Assembly (NCBI GenBank): GCA_015060245.1
Contig: SUYU01000015.1
Coordinates: forward strand, 1-43,435
From: Bacteroidales bacterium
Lineage (GTDB): Bacteria > Bacteroidota > Bacteroidia > Bacteroidales > UBA932
Reading direction: 5' to 3'
Length of the DNA: 43,435 nt
This document shows positions 14,039 through 20,124 of the stretch, piece by piece; positions within the stretch are counted from its first letter, which is position 1, and every line of letters begins with the position of its first letter. The position numbers and the translations under genes are program-made. Below the pieces are notes generated by a model. The model did no database searches, was not told the DNA's origin, and was given only the letters and a program-made list of their open reading frames with translations.

Positions 14039-14944
14039 ATGATTACAAATTTTGACCAACTGTTTGATCATTTGAGATCAAAACCTAAAAAAAGATTGGC
14101 AGCCGCATGGGCTGTAGATGACCATACAATTTGCGCTGTGGCTTTGGCCATTAAGGCAGGTATCGTTGACGGTACTCTTGTAGGTGATGAGGACATGATT
14201 AAGGAGGTATGTGCAAAAGAGAACATTGATCCTTCAATCTTCAGAATCGTTCACAATCCGAATGAGTTGAAATCAATTGCGCAGGCTGTTGAGATGGTAA
14301 ACAATGGTGAGGCAGACATTCTTATGAAGGGCCTTTGCAGCACCGACAAATATATGCGTGGCATCTTGAACAAGGAGAAGGGTCTTCTTCCTCCTAAAGC
14401 AGTGTTGAGCCACGTTGTGGTTATCCAGAACCCTAACTACCACAAATTGTTGATGATTTCAGACATCGCTGTTATTCCTGCTCCTGATTTCAAACAGAAA
14501 CTTGCTATGGTTCAGTATGTGTCAAATACTGCTAAAGCATTTGGCATCGAGAAACCAAAAGTTGCCATGATTGCTGCAACCGAGCAGATGTTGCAAGGTA
14601 TGCCTGCATGCGTAGAGGCTGCCATGATTGCAAAAATGAGCGACAGAGGCCAGATCCCTGGCTGCGTTGTTGACGGTCCTTTGGCTATTGATGTTGCCCT
14701 ATCATCTGAGGCTGTGAAGATCAAGAAACTTGTAAGCGAGGTTGCAGGTGATGCAGATTGTCTTGTATTCCCTAGCATTGAGGCTGCAAACGTATTCTAC
14801 AAAACAAATACACAGTTGATCCCTGGTACCAAGATGGCTGCTATGGTGGCTGGTGCAAAGGCTCCATGCGTGCTTTCAAGCCGTGCCGACAGCGTTGATA
14901 CCAAGTTGAACTCAATCGCTTTGGCTGCTGTTACTGCAAAATAA
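14039..14944 (+). CDS. ptb: Phosphate butyryltransferase
   Basis: Exchanges the CoA of butyryl-CoA (or a branched acyl-CoA) for phosphate, making the acyl phosphate used by Buk. The 301 residues fit Ptb, which lacks the N-terminal DRTGG/BioD part of long Pta forms. Family features include the ADILMKGLCSTDKYMRG stretch (about 92-108), the central VIPAPDF segment, and a C-terminal LIPGTKMAAMVAGAKAPCVL-type stretch followed by SSRADS. Short Pta proteins share the fold, but adjacency to a clear butyrate kinase decides for Ptb. The gap to buk is 16 bases, so translation is probably coupled. Confidence 0.9.
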   Translation: MITNFDQLFDHLRSKPKKRLAAAWAVDDHTICAVALAIKAGIVDGTLVGDEDMIKEVCAKENIDPSIFRIVHNPNELKSIAQAVEMVNNGEADILMKGLCSTDKYMRGILNKEKGLLPPKAVLSHVVVIQNPNYHKLLMISDIAVIPAPDFKQKLAMVQYVSNTAKAFGIEKPKVAMIAATEQMLQGMPACVEAAMIAKMSDRGQIPGCVVDGPLAIDVALSSEAVKIKKLVSEVAGDADCLVFPSIEAANVFYKTNTQLIPGTKMAAMVAGAKAPCVLSSRADSVDTKLNSIALAAVTAK

Positions 14945-14960
14945 TTTAATATATCAGATT

Positions 14961-16031
14961 ATGGCAAAATTGATACTTGCAATAAATCCCGGATCTACTT
15001 CAACAAAGATCTCGGTATATGAAGATAAGAAAGAGGTGTTTACAAAGACATTGAGGCATACCAACGAGGAGTTGGCTCCCTATAAAAATGTCATAGAGCA
15101 ACTCGATTTCAGAAAAGGGACAATCAAGGCTGCTTTGGAGGAGAACAATATTCCTTTGAACTCTTTGGATGTCATTGTTGGACGTGGCGGTTTGGTAAAA
15201 CCTATTCCATCTGGTGTTTATCAGGTTAATGATGCCATGATAAATGATATTAAGAGCGGAAAGAACGGTGAGCATGCAAGCAACCTTGGCGCTATTATAG
15301 CAAAAGATCTTGCAGCAGAGGTAGGCAACATCCCTGCTTTGATTGCAGATCCTGTTGTTGTTGATGAGTTGGCGCCTGTTGCAAGAATTGCAGGTCATCC
15401 TGAATTCCAGAGAATTTCAATTTTCCACGCCCTTAACCAGAAAGCAATTGCAAAATTGTATGCAAAGGAGCATGGCAAGAGATACGAAGATCTCAACATT
15501 ATAGTAGCCCATTTGGGTGGTGGTGTATCTGTAGGTATCCACAACCATGGAAAAGTTGTTGATGTGAATGATGCTTTGAACGGTGAGGGACCTTTCTCTC
15601 CTGAGCGTTCTGGCGGACTTCCTGCAGCACAGATTGTAAACATGTGCTTTGGCGGCAAATATACCGAGGCTGAGATAAGAAAAATGATCTCTGGCAAAGG
15701 CGGTGTTGTTGCCTATCTTGGTACAAACTCTTTCCAGGATGTTGAGAACGGTGTTGCAGCAGGAGATCCTAAAGCAACTCTTATCTCAGATGCATTTGCA
15801 TACCAACTTTGCAAGGAGATTGGTGCTATGGCCACTGTAGTTGACGGTAAAGTTGATGCAATCATCATTACTGGTGGTATTGCTTACAACAAACCGTTGA
15901 TGGAGCAGATCAAGTCAAAAGTTTCATTCATCGCTCCTGTAGAGATTTATGCTGGAGAGGATGAGATGGGTGCTTTGGCCGGCAATGGTCTTGCAGTTCT
16001 CACTGGCGAAGAGCAGGTAAAGGAGTACTAA
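14961..16031 (+). CDS. buk: Butyrate kinase
   Basis: Transfers phosphate from butyryl phosphate (or isobutyryl/isovaleryl phosphate) to ADP, giving ATP and the free acid. A 356-residue member of the ASKHA superfamily, close to the family length. Motifs are the N-terminal INPGSTSTKISVYE, VGRGGLVKPIPSGVY, the HLGGGVSVG phosphate loop, GPFSPERSGGLP, which is diagnostic for Buk, and ITGGIAYNKPL near the C-terminus. With ptb it forms a butyrate-forming, or branched-chain amino acid catabolic, ATP-yielding pair. No butyryl-CoA synthesis genes (thl, hbd, crt, bcd) are in the window, so the acyl-CoA source is unknown. Ends at a strong terminator. Confidence 0.93.
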   Translation: MAKLILAINPGSTSTKISVYEDKKEVFTKTLRHTNEELAPYKNVIEQLDFRKGTIKAALEENNIPLNSLDVIVGRGGLVKPIPSGVYQVNDAMINDIKSGKNGEHASNLGAIIAKDLAAEVGNIPALIADPVVVDELAPVARIAGHPEFQRISIFHALNQKAIAKLYAKEHGKRYEDLNIIVAHLGGGVSVGIHNHGKVVDVNDALNGEGPFSPERSGGLPAAQIVNMCFGGKYTEAEIRKMISGKGGVVAYLGTNSFQDVENGVAAGDPKATLISDAFAYQLCKEIGAMATVVDGKVDAIIITGGIAYNKPLMEQIKSKVSFIAPVEIYAGEDEMGALAGNGLAVLTGEEQVKEY

Positions 16032-16095
16032 AATAATTCCGCAGAGGAACTTTTTCCGCAACCACTCGTAGCGGTAAAACATTCCAATATAACAG

Positions 16096-16130
16096 GAGGG
16101 TGTCACTTTAAAAGTGACGCCCTCTTTTTT
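16096..16130 (+). terminator. Terminator of ackA-ptb-buk
   Basis: A 13-bp stem GAGGGTGTCACTT with its complement (one G-T wobble) and a TTAA loop, followed by six T. Confidence 0.92.
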
Positions 16131-16387: not shown

Positions 16388-17407
16388 ATGAAAAATCTAT
16401 TCTGCAAACTCTCATTTTTTGTGCTTCCGCTTCTGGTTTTTTGTGGATGCCAAAAAGAGAAATCACCTGTAATGGAGGGTGAGCCAATGGAGGTCTCCTT
16501 GAGTCTTAAAGGAGATTTTAATCTTGACATTACTCAGGAGTCAATGACCAAGGCATCCTCTGCCGATGCCTATGCAATCAATGTCTATTATGATAAGGAG
16601 TCTGACGGGGTTACAGACAATATGTATGCCTACGGCCTTTTTGACAATGTGGCCGACATGACCATTACCATGCTCTCAAACCACAAATATAAAGTTGAGT
16701 GCACTCTTGTCAAGGATGCAAAGAACAAACTCTATTTTGGTCAGGCATTTGGCAATACCTATACCGGCTATGCATATCCGTTTCAAACCAATGTTTCAAA
16801 CTCAACACTGTTGAACAACAAGTTCATTATTGGTACAGAAACAAAATTTACCGGAATGGGAAGCGGTAATGCCCATATTATTACAACCACAAATCCATCT
16901 GTAAATAATTCTACTCCAAATGCAAGTGTAAACAGATTTTATGGAGTCACAGACCAGTATGAGCCCGTACCAAACGGTACAATTGAGGTATATCTCAAGA
17001 GGGTTGTATTTGGGGCAAAGTTTGTTGTTACCGGAGTAAAAGAGGGAACTCTCAATGTCGCTTGCGGAGCATTTTTCAATAAAACCTATTCGGCTGATGA
17101 TGCTGGTGTTGAGCAGTTGTATACTTTTTCTGATGTTTATACTTGTTGGGAAAAGGAGACGCCGTTTGTTACAACCATAAATTTGCAGTATACATCCGAC
17201 AGACCTGGCGACTTGTGGGACATTTCAAAGAGCCAGGATATCTCTTTCAAAAGGAATGTCATGACTACTGTTAATGTAAAACTCAATCCAGACCTCTCCG
17301 GAGCCCTGTTTGAAATTGTTGAAGAGCCTTTTGACGAGGAGAATACCATTGATTTGGGAATAAATACAGATGGCTATATAGATATTGTTGTCAAACCTGA
17401 AAATTAA
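16388..17407 (+). CDS. Surface lipoprotein, possibly fimbrillin-like
   Basis: A 339-residue lipoprotein of unrecognised family. The signal peptide ends in VFCGC, so Cys21 would carry the lipid. The next residues QKEK resemble the charged export signal that sends lipoproteins to the cell surface in Bacteroidota. A Lys-containing segment (SMTKASSADAYAINVYY, about 55-71) could be a maturation site like that of fimbrillins, but this is a guess from position. The rest is beta-rich, with YAYGLFDN near residue 80 and LKRVVFGAKF near 205. The next gene has matching YGYFDN and LKRVGFKLKY at equivalent places, so the two are diverged paralogues. Gap to the next gene is 6 bases. Confidence 0.75.
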   Translation: MKNLFCKLSFFVLPLLVFCGCQKEKSPVMEGEPMEVSLSLKGDFNLDITQESMTKASSADAYAINVYYDKESDGVTDNMYAYGLFDNVADMTITMLSNHKYKVECTLVKDAKNKLYFGQAFGNTYTGYAYPFQTNVSNSTLLNNKFIIGTETKFTGMGSGNAHIITTTNPSVNNSTPNASVNRFYGVTDQYEPVPNGTIEVYLKRVVFGAKFVVTGVKEGTLNVACGAFFNKTYSADDAGVEQLYTFSDVYTCWEKETPFVTTINLQYTSDRPGDLWDISKSQDISFKRNVMTTVNVKLNPDLSGALFEIVEEPFDEENTIDLGINTDGYIDIVVKPEN

Positions 17408-17413
17408 TTGAAA

Positions 17414-18502
17414 ATGAAAAGAATATTTATATTGTTTGCTGCAGTGTGCAGCGCCCTGCTCTTTACAGGTTGTAATGACAAAGATTTGGATAATACTGCC
17501 AATGAGATACAAGATGGCTTGTGTGAAGTCTCGTTAAACCCTATTGGAGAGATTATAACAACCGATGAGCCTTTGTCAAAAAGCAGCATTATAATGACTG
17601 ATGATATTTATATTGTGCAGGTTTACAATACCACATCATCAACTGAAGAGTCATTTGCATACGGTTATTTTGACAATCTGCAAAGCATGAAACTCTTCCT
17701 TAAGAAAGGAAACACATACAGGATTATATTATCTGTAATCAAGAATGGAAAAAACCTTTTGGGAGATGATTTCTGTTTGACGCAGAACTCAATATACTCA
17801 AACTATTTGGATAATGCCTATTCGTTGACTGATTTAAACAAGATCCAAAAGAGATATTGGTTTCCATTGAATACATTTTACTATAATTTGCATGGAACCA
17901 ATTTGACTTATTACTCTTATAATTCAAGTACGTCACTTTCAGAGTGGACTATTATTTCGGGAAATAAAAGTTCTAACTTCTATCTTCCCTACATTTCAAC
18001 GACTTGCTTCAAAGGTGTCCGTTACCCTGTCTGCGATGACTGGTTTTATGGTGAAGAGGTTTATTATGTCCCAACCGGCGATTACCAGACACTTGATATG
18101 GATTTGAAAAGGGTTGGTTTCAAACTTAAATATGAGTTGTCGGGAGTTACAGATGGTGAGGTTACTGTAAAGGTATATAACAGTTCAAGAACATTTATAG
18201 ATAACACAACCAATACATCTTCATACGAGAGCGGAGAGCAGTTCATTGCGTTTGATGATGCAAAGAGTGCATGGGAGTATGCCGATGACTATTCCGAGAA
18301 TATGACCGTTTCTGTAAGTTGGCTCAGGAGTATTGGTGTCAACCAGGATTTGGGTACAAAGACCATCCAGGTCAAGAGGAACTGTTTGAACAACATCAGA
18401 ATTACTTTGGGCAGTGATGACAAGGGTGCCGGCCTGTCGTTGAATATAGAGGAAGACAGCACTTATGGAGGCAGTTCAACAACTGATATACCTGTAGAGT
18501 AA
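17414..18502 (+). CDS. Surface lipoprotein, paralogue of the preceding gene
   Basis: A 362-residue lipoprotein of unrecognised family. Signal peptide MKRIFILFAAVCSALLFTG is followed by lipid Cys20 and the acidic stretch NDKDLDN, a plausible surface-export signal. It shares with the gene before it YIVQVYN after a Lys-Ser segment, FAYGYFDN, GNTYRI, LKRVGFKLKYELSGVTDGEV and a closing beta-rich module (KTIQVKRNCLNNIRITL). An upstream TTG two codons earlier is possible, but the ATG at 17414 is preferred. It is part of the same transcription unit: 6 bases follow the previous stop and 9 bases precede the next start. It could be a fimbrial subunit or anchor; nothing in it fixes the function. Confidence 0.75.
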   Translation: MKRIFILFAAVCSALLFTGCNDKDLDNTANEIQDGLCEVSLNPIGEIITTDEPLSKSSIIMTDDIYIVQVYNTTSSTEESFAYGYFDNLQSMKLFLKKGNTYRIILSVIKNGKNLLGDDFCLTQNSIYSNYLDNAYSLTDLNKIQKRYWFPLNTFYYNLHGTNLTYYSYNSSTSLSEWTIISGNKSSNFYLPYISTTCFKGVRYPVCDDWFYGEEVYYVPTGDYQTLDMDLKRVGFKLKYELSGVTDGEVTVKVYNSSRTFIDNTTNTSSYESGEQFIAFDDAKSAWEYADDYSENMTVSVSWLRSIGVNQDLGTKTIQVKRNCLNNIRITLGSDDKGAGLSLNIEEDSTYGGSSTTDIPVE

Positions 18503-18511
18503 ATTTGGTTT

Positions 18512-19882
18512 ATGAAGAGAATTTTGATTTTCATATCATTGTTGCCTCTTCTCCTTGCTTGTGAAAGTGAGGACCCGGGTACAATTGCAAGAGGCAATTT
18601 TGATTTGTCGCTGAGTGCGGAGTTGCCCGAAATGCAGGTCATTGATGACTCGTCAGGCTTTGATACCAGGGCTGCCACCCAATATACAGTAAAGATCAAG
18701 TGGGCCCTGGGTGACAAACTTTCTGTTATAAATGTTACTACCGGAAAGATTTTGGGAGGAAATCTTACTTCTGATGTGAGCGGTACTGTTACAACCTTTT
18801 CAGGCAAATTGAACGGTACAATTAATGCCGGTGACCAGATAATGTATTTCTATCCGGGGCAAAGCAATAGCGTAGAGGAGGATTTTACCGGGGCAGAGAT
18901 TGATTTTTCATCGCAGCCCGGTACTATGGGAGGTGTGCCTATATGTTGCTATTCTGTAGTTACAGCAGATGGTGCGACCTTCAGCAAAATGAGTGTGACT
19001 TTCCAGTTCCTTATGAGTTACATTATGATTGGATTGTCTGACATTCCTGCATCTGCCCTCATAAAAACGGTAAAACTTACGAATGTTACCAATTCATTCA
19101 AGTTTGCGCTAAATGCTGCCAGAACAGGTTATGTGCTCACTCCACAGACGGGAGATATACTCCTTTCTCCATCAACTGTGGCTTCAGCCTCCGGAAACAA
19201 AACGGTTTATGCTGCTGTGCCGGCTTCGTCGTCAATGCAGAGGTTTGTGGTTCTTGAGACCGGTACATCAACATTTTCGGCTCCATTTACAACTGCAAAC
19301 ATCAAGAACGGTTCATCGTACAACACAAATGTGTCGGGTTTTCTCAATGATGATTTGACCATTGAAGATGACTCCATGCGCGAGTATTGCCTCAAACATT
19401 TTGATTCCAATGGTGATGGCAAACTCTCAATGGTAGAGATTGCGGGTGTTACAAAATTCCCTGACCAGTCGATGTATCCTCTGCCAACTGACGTGACAGA
19501 GTTCAATGAGTTGCAATATTTTTATGGGCTGACAGAACTTCCATCATTCAAGAATTGCACTCAACTCCAGACCATAACTCTACCTCGGCAGATTGCTCTC
19601 ATACCATCTGAGTCGTTTAATGGTTGCACCAGTTTGGTAAAGGTAATTTTGAAACCCTCTGTGCCTCCGGTTTTGGGTCAGAATGTCTTTACCGGTCAGG
19701 CTGGAGAACTTATTTTTGTGGTTTCAGATGATTCTGTATCAGCCTACCAGGCTGCAGACGGCTGGAAAGATTATTTCAATAATTTCAGGACAGAGTCAAG
19801 CCAGGGCGATACAAACGTAGATATTGAGATTGAAGATGAGGACTCAATGGATGACGATAAGGTTGATATTACTATTGGGTAA
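18512..19882 (+). CDS. Lipoprotein with fimbrillin-like, EF-hand-like and leucine-rich parts
   Basis: A 456-residue lipoprotein; signal peptide ends at LLLAC, giving lipid Cys17, followed by ESEDPG, a surface-type export signal. Residues 30-280 are beta-rich, with GFDTRAATQYTVKIKW (49-64) resembling the Arg maturation site and first strand of fimbrillin-like proteins. DSNGDGKLSMVEI (298-310) has the D-x-N/D-x-D spacing of an EF-hand/dockerin calcium loop. Residues about 325-425 hold BspA-type leucine-rich repeats (LTELPSFKNCTQLQTITLP, then IPSESFNGCTSLVKVIL). The tail from about 430 is strongly acidic. Such modular proteins are usually cell-surface adhesins. The domain calls are by eye. Confidence 0.75.
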   Translation: MKRILIFISLLPLLLACESEDPGTIARGNFDLSLSAELPEMQVIDDSSGFDTRAATQYTVKIKWALGDKLSVINVTTGKILGGNLTSDVSGTVTTFSGKLNGTINAGDQIMYFYPGQSNSVEEDFTGAEIDFSSQPGTMGGVPICCYSVVTADGATFSKMSVTFQFLMSYIMIGLSDIPASALIKTVKLTNVTNSFKFALNAARTGYVLTPQTGDILLSPSTVASASGNKTVYAAVPASSSMQRFVVLETGTSTFSAPFTTANIKNGSSYNTNVSGFLNDDLTIEDDSMREYCLKHFDSNGDGKLSMVEIAGVTKFPDQSMYPLPTDVTEFNELQYFYGLTELPSFKNCTQLQTITLPRQIALIPSESFNGCTSLVKVILKPSVPPVLGQNVFTGQAGELIFVVSDDSVSAYQAADGWKDYFNNFRTESSQGDTNVDIEIEDEDSMDDDKVDITIG

Positions 19883-19929
19883 CCGATTTTGCTACAGATT
19901 AACTTGAATAAATAAAAAACTATACGATT

Positions 19930-20064
19930 ATGAAATTTAATGAGTATTTGGAGCCTTCAGTTGATGTGGTGGAGGTTGTTGTAGAAACAGGTTTTGCTAC
20001 TACCGGTGGTAATGGCTTTGATCAAGGCGGCGACGGCGATTTGGAGGGTGGCGGTGAGATTTAA
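19930..20064 (+). CDS. 44-residue Gly/Asp-rich small peptide
   Basis: A small ORF beginning MKFNEYLEPSVDVVEVVVE and ending in a Gly/Asp/Glu-rich half without Cys, Lys or Arg (FDQGGDGDLEGGGEI). It starts 47 bases after the third lipoprotein and ends just before the cassette terminator, so it should be its last gene. Small peptides beginning with Lys, a Tyr and a Pro-Ser/Thr-x-x-Val-x-x-Val/Ile pattern are familiar in Bacteroidales near surface-protein genes; that is from memory of the group, not a search. A Gly-Gly at 26-27 resembles a leader cleavage site, but no ABC transporter or modifying enzyme is nearby. Function unknown. Confidence 0.65.
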   Translation: MKFNEYLEPSVDVVEVVVETGFATTGGNGFDQGGDGDLEGGGEI

Positions 20065-20091: not shown

Positions 20092-20124
20092 AGTGCCTGG
20101 GAGCGGCAACTCCCGGGCACTTTT
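20092..20124. terminator. Terminator of the lipoprotein cassette
   Basis: A 12-bp stem AGTGCCTGGGAG with its complement (one G-T wobble) and a CGGCAA loop, followed by TTTTATTT. The downstream edge overlaps the stop codon of the convergent binding-protein gene, which may share it. Confidence 0.88.

Follow-up and report, generated by a model that had tools for sequence, protein, structure and literature searches.

A small acidic peptide encoded with fimbrillin-like lipoproteins in a Bacteroidales genome as a probable precursor of a modified peptide

A run of four genes was analyzed that lies in a stretch of 43,435 nucleotides (termed the window), which is contig C20 of the genome of a Bacteroidales bacterium (2.2 Mb, 39 contigs; labelled G000 and named host genome in the following). 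Genes 1 to 3 code for lipoproteins and gene 4 codes for a peptide of 44 residues. Gene 4 is likely to encode the precursor of a ribosomally synthesized and post-translationally modified peptide (RiPP) that resembles the linear polyphosphorylated peptides (LPPs), is matured in trans, and is paired with surface lipoproteins. The N-terminal 23 residues would serve as a leader, whose YxxPxV motif would be bound by a discrete PqqD-type RiPP recognition element (RRE). A kinase and a nucleotidyltransferase would modify the core near the Ser or Thr located two residues past a GFA motif, an archaeal-type signal peptidase would cleave behind GFA, and an MsbA-like ATP-binding cassette (ABC) transporter would export the short acidic product. 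One unlinked operon on contig C7 may serve about a dozen dispersed precursors of the host genome. The family with its architecture and gene context, and its co-occurrence and linkage with the enzyme genes, were observed in the sequences, whereas modification, cleavage, export, and the connection to the lipoproteins are proposed on this basis.

The peptide family

The peptide encoded by gene 4 belongs to a family with the motif Y-x-x-P, 11 residues, G-F-A, x, and S/T, which is followed by a short variable acidic tail. With the 44-residue peptide as query, 10 matches were found in the host genome; a profile of ten members yielded 12. The reach of the peptide profile comprised 19 of 39 genomes of the genus (E ≤ 0.1) and, at E ≤ 0.01, 23 of 149 genomes of the family and 11 of 295 genomes of the order. 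The matches from the genus with E ≤ 1e-6 and those from order and family with E ≤ 0.01 were combined to a set of 121 peptides from 39 genomes, after one duplicate peptide had been removed from 122 rows. Outside this set are G010:C4 (contig end), G000:C36 (internal stop), 24 weaker rows from the genus, G020:C1, and G361:C9:900. The one pair of peptides that was compared as DNA was identical.

For motif analysis, one peptide shorter than 28 residues was excluded. The pattern Y..P(9-13)G[FIL][ACM] is fitted by 112 of the 120 peptides examined, and in 110 of these 112 the spacing is 11 residues. The residue at position +2 relative to GFA is Ser in 103, Thr in 7, and Ala in 2 cases, i.e. Ser or Thr in 110 of 112. 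Past this position, conservation is below 1 bit per column; the cores have a median length of 17 residues and a net charge of -4, and 84 contain a Trp. The G-F-A motif agrees with the small-x-small rule of signal peptidases. When 36 peptides were scanned against Pfam and NCBIfam, three families turned up, and each of them matched one member at E-values of 0.04–0.08; judged by these scans, the peptide family is without a model in either database.

A second leader class, Y-x-x-P ... E-G-V-I-C/A-x-S, contains Y, P, E, and S at the same positions as the first one. Its profile matched in 50 of 149 family genomes with up to 16 matches per genome (G008), and members of the first class were also picked up. 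The second-class loci L097-L107 and L294-L321 are mostly located upstream of lipoprotein genes where this was checked. Two peptide matches (G000:C36:1714-1800 and G018:C13:109381-109464) contain an internal stop codon and are possibly decayed precursor genes.

The putative maturation operon

The five genes of the putative maturation operon are listed in Table 1. The RRE profile matches TfuB1 in the PDB (1.9e-6), a B1 protein from lasso peptide biosynthesis. In all 10 aligned relatives of the signal peptidase, Ser, His, and Asp are invariant, and the host protein has them as well. The kinase was assigned because its P-loop, too, is invariant in 12 of 12 aligned proteins including that of the host, which adds to weak profile scores. 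In relatives, an HprK-like kinase, a signal-peptidase-like protein, PqqD, NTP_transf_5, an ABC transporter, a peptide, and a lipoprotein recur as a set around PqqD in variable order. The set is complete in L250, L252, and L253; L245 and L257 show no NTP_transf_5. In G442, the gene of the PqqD-type RRE adjoins a peptide. The loci L250, L252, and L253 (G412, G432, and G442) are LPP-like clusters in which the precursor lies beside a lipoprotein, and the lipoprotein of L253 hits Mfa_like_1.

Peptides and PqqD co-occur. Of the 23 family genomes with first-class peptide matches, 22 carry PqqD; if both classes are considered, it was found in 49 of 54 peptide-bearing versus 20 of 95 peptide-free family genomes (p = 2e-17, relatedness ignored). 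Furthermore, the genes are linked: of 34 genomes, 15 have PqqD at most 6 kb from a peptide, where 0.7 are expected. This cut-off was picked after the first distances were known; with narrower limits of 2, 3, and 4 kb, 7, 9, and 12 of the 34 genomes qualify. For 5 of the 39 genomes, of which G277 and G315 do carry PqqD, no PqqD position was listed. In the order, PqqD is common (183 of 295 genomes), and all but one of the 11 genomes with peptide matches carry it; presence without linkage therefore says little at this level.

The subtype of the RRE follows that of the leader. For this comparison, 65 sequences were typed by eye and by means of a regular expression; G005, G025, and G028 were left out, and peptide-bearing genomes from outside the genus are over-represented in the sample. 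RREs with the motif [DNE][LMF]T[RK] accompany GFA leaders. Within the genus, strong GFA matches occur in 6 of 6 genomes with this RRE type (7 of 7 if the partial RRE of G009 is counted) versus 1 of 22 others (p = 2e-5). Eight genus genomes of the family sample have another RRE, and all of them except G001 have second-class matches. In the genus genomes lacking PqqD (G033, G037, and G038), no second-class peptide match was found.

Alternatively, the operon might have a different substrate, such as an envelope polysaccharide, and the peptides would be merely co-resident. The MsbA-like transporter is consistent with such a role, and some operons lie, as judged by eye, within polysaccharide loci (L244, L246, and L248). 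However, it would explain neither the short distances between PqqD and the peptides nor the agreement of RRE and leader subtypes within the genus, and this class of PqqD-type RREs is known to target YxxP. We consider this alternative very unlikely.

Lipoprotein neighbours and the four-gene run

After removal of 6 peptides located at a contig or locus end, 115 of the 121 peptides had a readable downstream side. Lipoproteins were called with our own rule, which combines lipobox and hydrophobicity and was applied identically to background genes. A lipoprotein gene follows directly downstream of 90 of the 115 peptides in 33 of 36 genomes, and the median gap in these 90 cases is 18 nt; the background rate is 63 of 302 genes, taken from 400 kb of host sequence. 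The gene downstream of the peptide on G340:C28 is lipoprotein-like by eye and was kept out of this count. In the host genome, 9 of 12 peptide matches show the same arrangement. It was also found for 17 of 23 second-class loci checked (of 30) and for 12 of 12 weaker genus matches checked (of 24), which overlap with the second-class set. The neighbouring proteins are very diverse and comprise LRR proteins, M48 and M64 peptidases, and DUF4465 proteins; among the 90 lipoproteins, many of which are cut at the locus end, Mfa_like_1 was found in 21 and LRR_5 in 7. Because a lipoprotein gene directly follows most precursor genes, the mature peptide probably acts at the cell surface in concert with its co-encoded lipoprotein; in the window, the partners would be the fimbrillin-like products of genes 1–3. 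At two loci (L024:6356-6502 and L075:3986-4114), a lone GFA peptide with a retained leader and a diverged tail precedes a gene of 697 codons without lipoprotein signal by 228–230 nt.

The placement of 90 peptides directly before lipoprotein genes, with its short gap, could be expected if the small open reading frame (ORF) acted in cis as a leader by which translation of the following lipoprotein gene is coupled or attenuated. However, in the window and in L018, a locus from a sheep-omasum metagenome-assembled genome (JAFWOY010000027.1), the small ORF is the last and not the first one of the run and no gene on the same strand is close behind; the window peptide can therefore not serve as a leader ORF for a downstream gene. 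Moreover, amino acids are conserved at fixed spacing, and the co-occurrence with PqqD would be left unexplained. A role as cis-acting leader is thus very unlikely.

The gene layout of the run in the window was predicted correctly. Each of the four plus-strand ORFs begins with ATG and ends with TAA, and the gaps are exactly 6, 9, and 47 bases as claimed. The proposed terminator was also recovered as a stable hairpin behind gene 4 (Table 1), albeit a simple scan found 3 terminators overall versus 2.9 in shuffled sequences, i.e. no excess. Likewise, charged residues follow the lipid cysteine of the three lipoproteins (CQKEK, CNDKD, and CESED), and a basic residue is present (TKAS, SKSS, and TRAAT) where fimbrillin-like maturation would occur. 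A PTA_PTB gene and an acetokinase-family gene are located immediately 5' of the cassette (window positions 14039-16031), and a Peripla_BP_2 gene lies downstream on the opposite strand.

Genes 1 and 2 are diverged paralogues, as had been proposed: their products share 26% identity over 357 columns and score 63.5 bits, compared to 25.8 bits for the best of 200 shuffled copies. The structure model of gene 1 is weak, and its best matches are Bacteroidales fimbrillins. PepT2 and transthyretin, which occupy the top rows of the structure list, match a single beta-sandwich domain and were taken as generic. The profile of genes 1 and 2 had no convincing match among PDB sequences. Across the order, it gave weak matches only, in 6 of 294 other genomes (E-values from 4e-5 to 1e-3), and gene 1 is present in 4 of 39 genus genomes including the host. 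The modules proposed for gene 3 were confirmed to different degrees. The BspA repeats were detected; the EF-hand match is weak, but the loop DxNxDGxxxxxE is kept in L018, which contains the only orthologue found. Residues 1–274 align with a profile of the 90 peptide-linked lipoproteins with an hhalign probability of 97.9, the shared signal peptide being included in the alignment; genes 1 and 2 align with it over the N-terminal 58 residues only. The structure model of gene 3 was too poor for use. For genes 1–3, no Pfam fimbrillin match was found up to E = 1. The lipoproteins resemble the type V (Fim/Mfa) fimbrillins of Bacteroidales in their lipoprotein signal, the basic residue after the N-terminal strand, and the weakly predicted two-domain beta fold of gene 1; in addition, gene 3 matches a profile whose 90 lipoproteins include 21 with an Mfa_like_1 hit. 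They differ by the missing Pfam match and by the EF-hand-like and BspA parts of gene 3.

Gene order is conserved in part. In L018, genes 1, 2, and 3 and a small YxxP ORF occur in the same order with gaps of 7, 7, and 12 bases, although this ORF fails the full peptide motif. L018 probably corresponds to G378, a genome from a different genus of the host's family, given that the PqqD match has identical coordinates in both. In G027, a YxxP peptide comes first, upstream of a lipoprotein gene that is followed by genes 1 and 2. No such peptide was found near the gene 1–gene 2 pair of G024 or near gene 1 of G010.

The original prediction had proposed a fimbria-like structure with the peptide as a minor part. 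For its first half, the weak model of gene 1 and the profile match of gene 3 provide fimbrillin-like evidence. The second half is not supported, because no hydrophobic stretch or signal sequence is visible by eye in the window peptide. A minor subunit or donor-strand plug that is exported unmodified with the products of genes 1–3 would agree with the common operon and with the conserved half of the peptide, which alternates between hydrophobic and acidic residues like a beta-strand. However, this strand-like part is the half that resembles RRE-binding leaders, the peptides of relatives adjoin the very different proteins named above, and they are linked to a RiPP-type operon. Such a subunit is therefore highly improbable.

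Table 1. Features of the four-gene run in the window and of the putative maturation operon in the host genome
Feature	Position	Strand	Evidence or remark
Gene 1, lipoprotein, 339 aa	16388..17407	+	Weakly predicted all-beta, two domains, fimbrillin-like fold
Gene 2, lipoprotein, 362 aa	17414..18502	+	Paralogue of gene 1
Gene 3, lipoprotein, 456 aa	18512..19882	+	Fimbrillin-type N-terminal part, EF-hand-like loop, BspA repeats
EF-hand-like loop DSNGDGKLSMVE in gene 3	19403..19438	+	Sequence; kept in L018; Pfam EF-hand_6 with E = 0.1 only
BspA-type leucine-rich repeats (LRR_5) in gene 3	19547..19663	+	LRR_5, E = 1.2e-6
Gene 4, precursor peptide, 44 aa, Y-x-x-P ... G-F-A family (probable)	19930..20064	+	Profile searches, motif analysis
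Predicted leader MKFNEYLEPSVDVVEVVVETGFA with putative RRE-binding motif YxxPxV	19930..19998	+	Comparison with LPP leaders (PMC13381572); predicted cut after GFA
Predicted core TTGGNGFDQGGDGDLEGGGEI, 21 aa, acidic, Thr at +2	19999..20061	+	Motif analysis; predicted
Terminator-like hairpin	16094..16126	+	3' of the preceding acetokinase-family gene, sets that gene apart from the operon
Intrinsic terminator of the operon	20092..20121	+	Fold -23.9 kcal/mol, z = -6.7
Host five-gene operon	G000:C7:51261-55856 (L243:8262-12857)		Another contig than the window; complete, once in genome, no precursor nearby
Discrete PqqD-type RRE	C7:51261-51527		PF05402, E = 2.9e-11
NTP_transf_5 nucleotidyltransferase	C7:51559-52803		E = 2.3e-36
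MsbA-like ABC transporter	C7:52835-54481		Best NCBIfam match MsbA_lipidA, E = 1.7e-66, below cut-off
HprK-like kinase	C7:54478-55380		HprK_rel_A 0.005 in host protein, 2.8e-5 in a relative
Archaeal-type signal peptidase I	C7:55380-55856		TIGR02228, E = 1.3e-11, below cut-off

Comparison with known systems

LPPs were reported in 2026 for lppAKBSDN of Paenibacillus alginolyticus (PMC13381572), and the following statements on them are taken from that report. The machinery consists of an archaeal-type signal peptidase I, a discrete RRE, an HprK-like kinase, a nucleoside triphosphate (NTP) transferase, and an MsbA-like transporter. The precursors comprise 35–200 residues and have the leader YxxPxVLxHQxIxFETxxS. 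LppK phosphorylates Ser3, LppS cuts off the leader with the help of the RRE, and an S3T variant remained unphosphorylated in the one LPP tested. The discussion of the report describes LPPs as restricted to Bacillota and their role as unknown, whereas its results assign the peptidase set "predominantly" to Bacillota (PMC13381572).

The Bacteroidales operon combines the same five functions, including a signal peptidase with Ser, His, and Asp. The precursors have a YxxPxV leader, a Ser near the cut site, and a variable tail, and no macrocyclase was seen in the operons scanned. The distance from Tyr to Ser is 19 residues here and 18 in LPPs. However, the window precursor does not match the full LPP leader motif; only YxxPxV and the rough distance of the Ser agree. 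In contrast to LPP precursors, those of Bacteroidales are dispersed, with up to 13–16 matches per genome, and lie beside lipoprotein genes. The host is a member of the Bacteroidales and not of the (predominantly) Bacillota, and phosphorylation is proposed here by analogy. Because the five functions are the same but the other half of the leader differs and the precursors are dispersed, we name the system LPP-like and not LPP.

Paeninodin-type phosphorylated lasso peptides share the PqqD-type B1/RRE, the HprK-like kinase, the nucleotidyltransferase, and a Y/WxxP leader motif, but the operon peptidase is signal-peptidase-like here. An Asn-synthetase-like cyclase and a B2 protease had no Pfam or NCBIfam match in the operon proteins scanned (host, L250, L252, and L253), a genome-wide search not having been made. 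Without cyclase and B2 protease, a lasso peptide is unsupported for the operons scanned.

Several observations argue against gene 4 being the precursor of an LPP-like RiPP. The Bacteroidales leader is rich in Glu up to G-F-A, whereas that of LPPs contains HQxIxFET. The window peptide has a Thr instead of a Ser at position +2, which calls for caution because of the S3T result. By profile, the kinase is only weakly recognized (HprK_rel_A 0.005 in the host protein; PEPCK 7.5e-4), and the signal peptidase scores 44.7, compared to a curated cut-off of 51.85. The presence of the latter in 37 of 40 genomes refers to a sample made up only of 39 genomes with first-class peptide matches and G378. No peptide match was found in 20 of 69 PqqD-bearing family genomes, no PqqD match was found in 5 of 54 peptide-bearing ones, and counts across related genomes are not independent. 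The nearest precursor of the host genome is 25 kb away from the operon, and none is linked to it. Outside the genus, G340, G358, G375, and G449 combine FNK-type RREs with GFA-type matches. Finally, 25 peptides lack a downstream lipoprotein gene (12 are isolated, 10 have a close upstream gene only, and 3 precede another kind of gene).

No title or abstract opening retrieved from the literature describes this peptide family in Bacteroidales, and the available text of RiPP mining papers on Bacteroidales and rumen bacteria does not mention the enzyme set for Bacteroidales. A more general and still tentative picture is that many Bacteroidales might use one LPP-like maturation operon for a dozen or more dispersed precursors, each paired with its own surface lipoprotein. 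An acidic, probably phosphate-modified peptide, displayed on a fimbrillin- or LRR-type lipoprotein or assembled with it, might then decorate this protein or serve as its ligand or cofactor. If this is true, surface structures would contain a RiPP as one of their parts. The occurrence of all five LPP maturation functions in Bacteroidales would extend the LPP family to another phylum, and the dispersed precursors beside lipoprotein genes would give a contextual clue to the role of LPP-type peptides. Small ORFs that no Pfam or NCBIfam model covers would thereby gain a testable biochemical partner.

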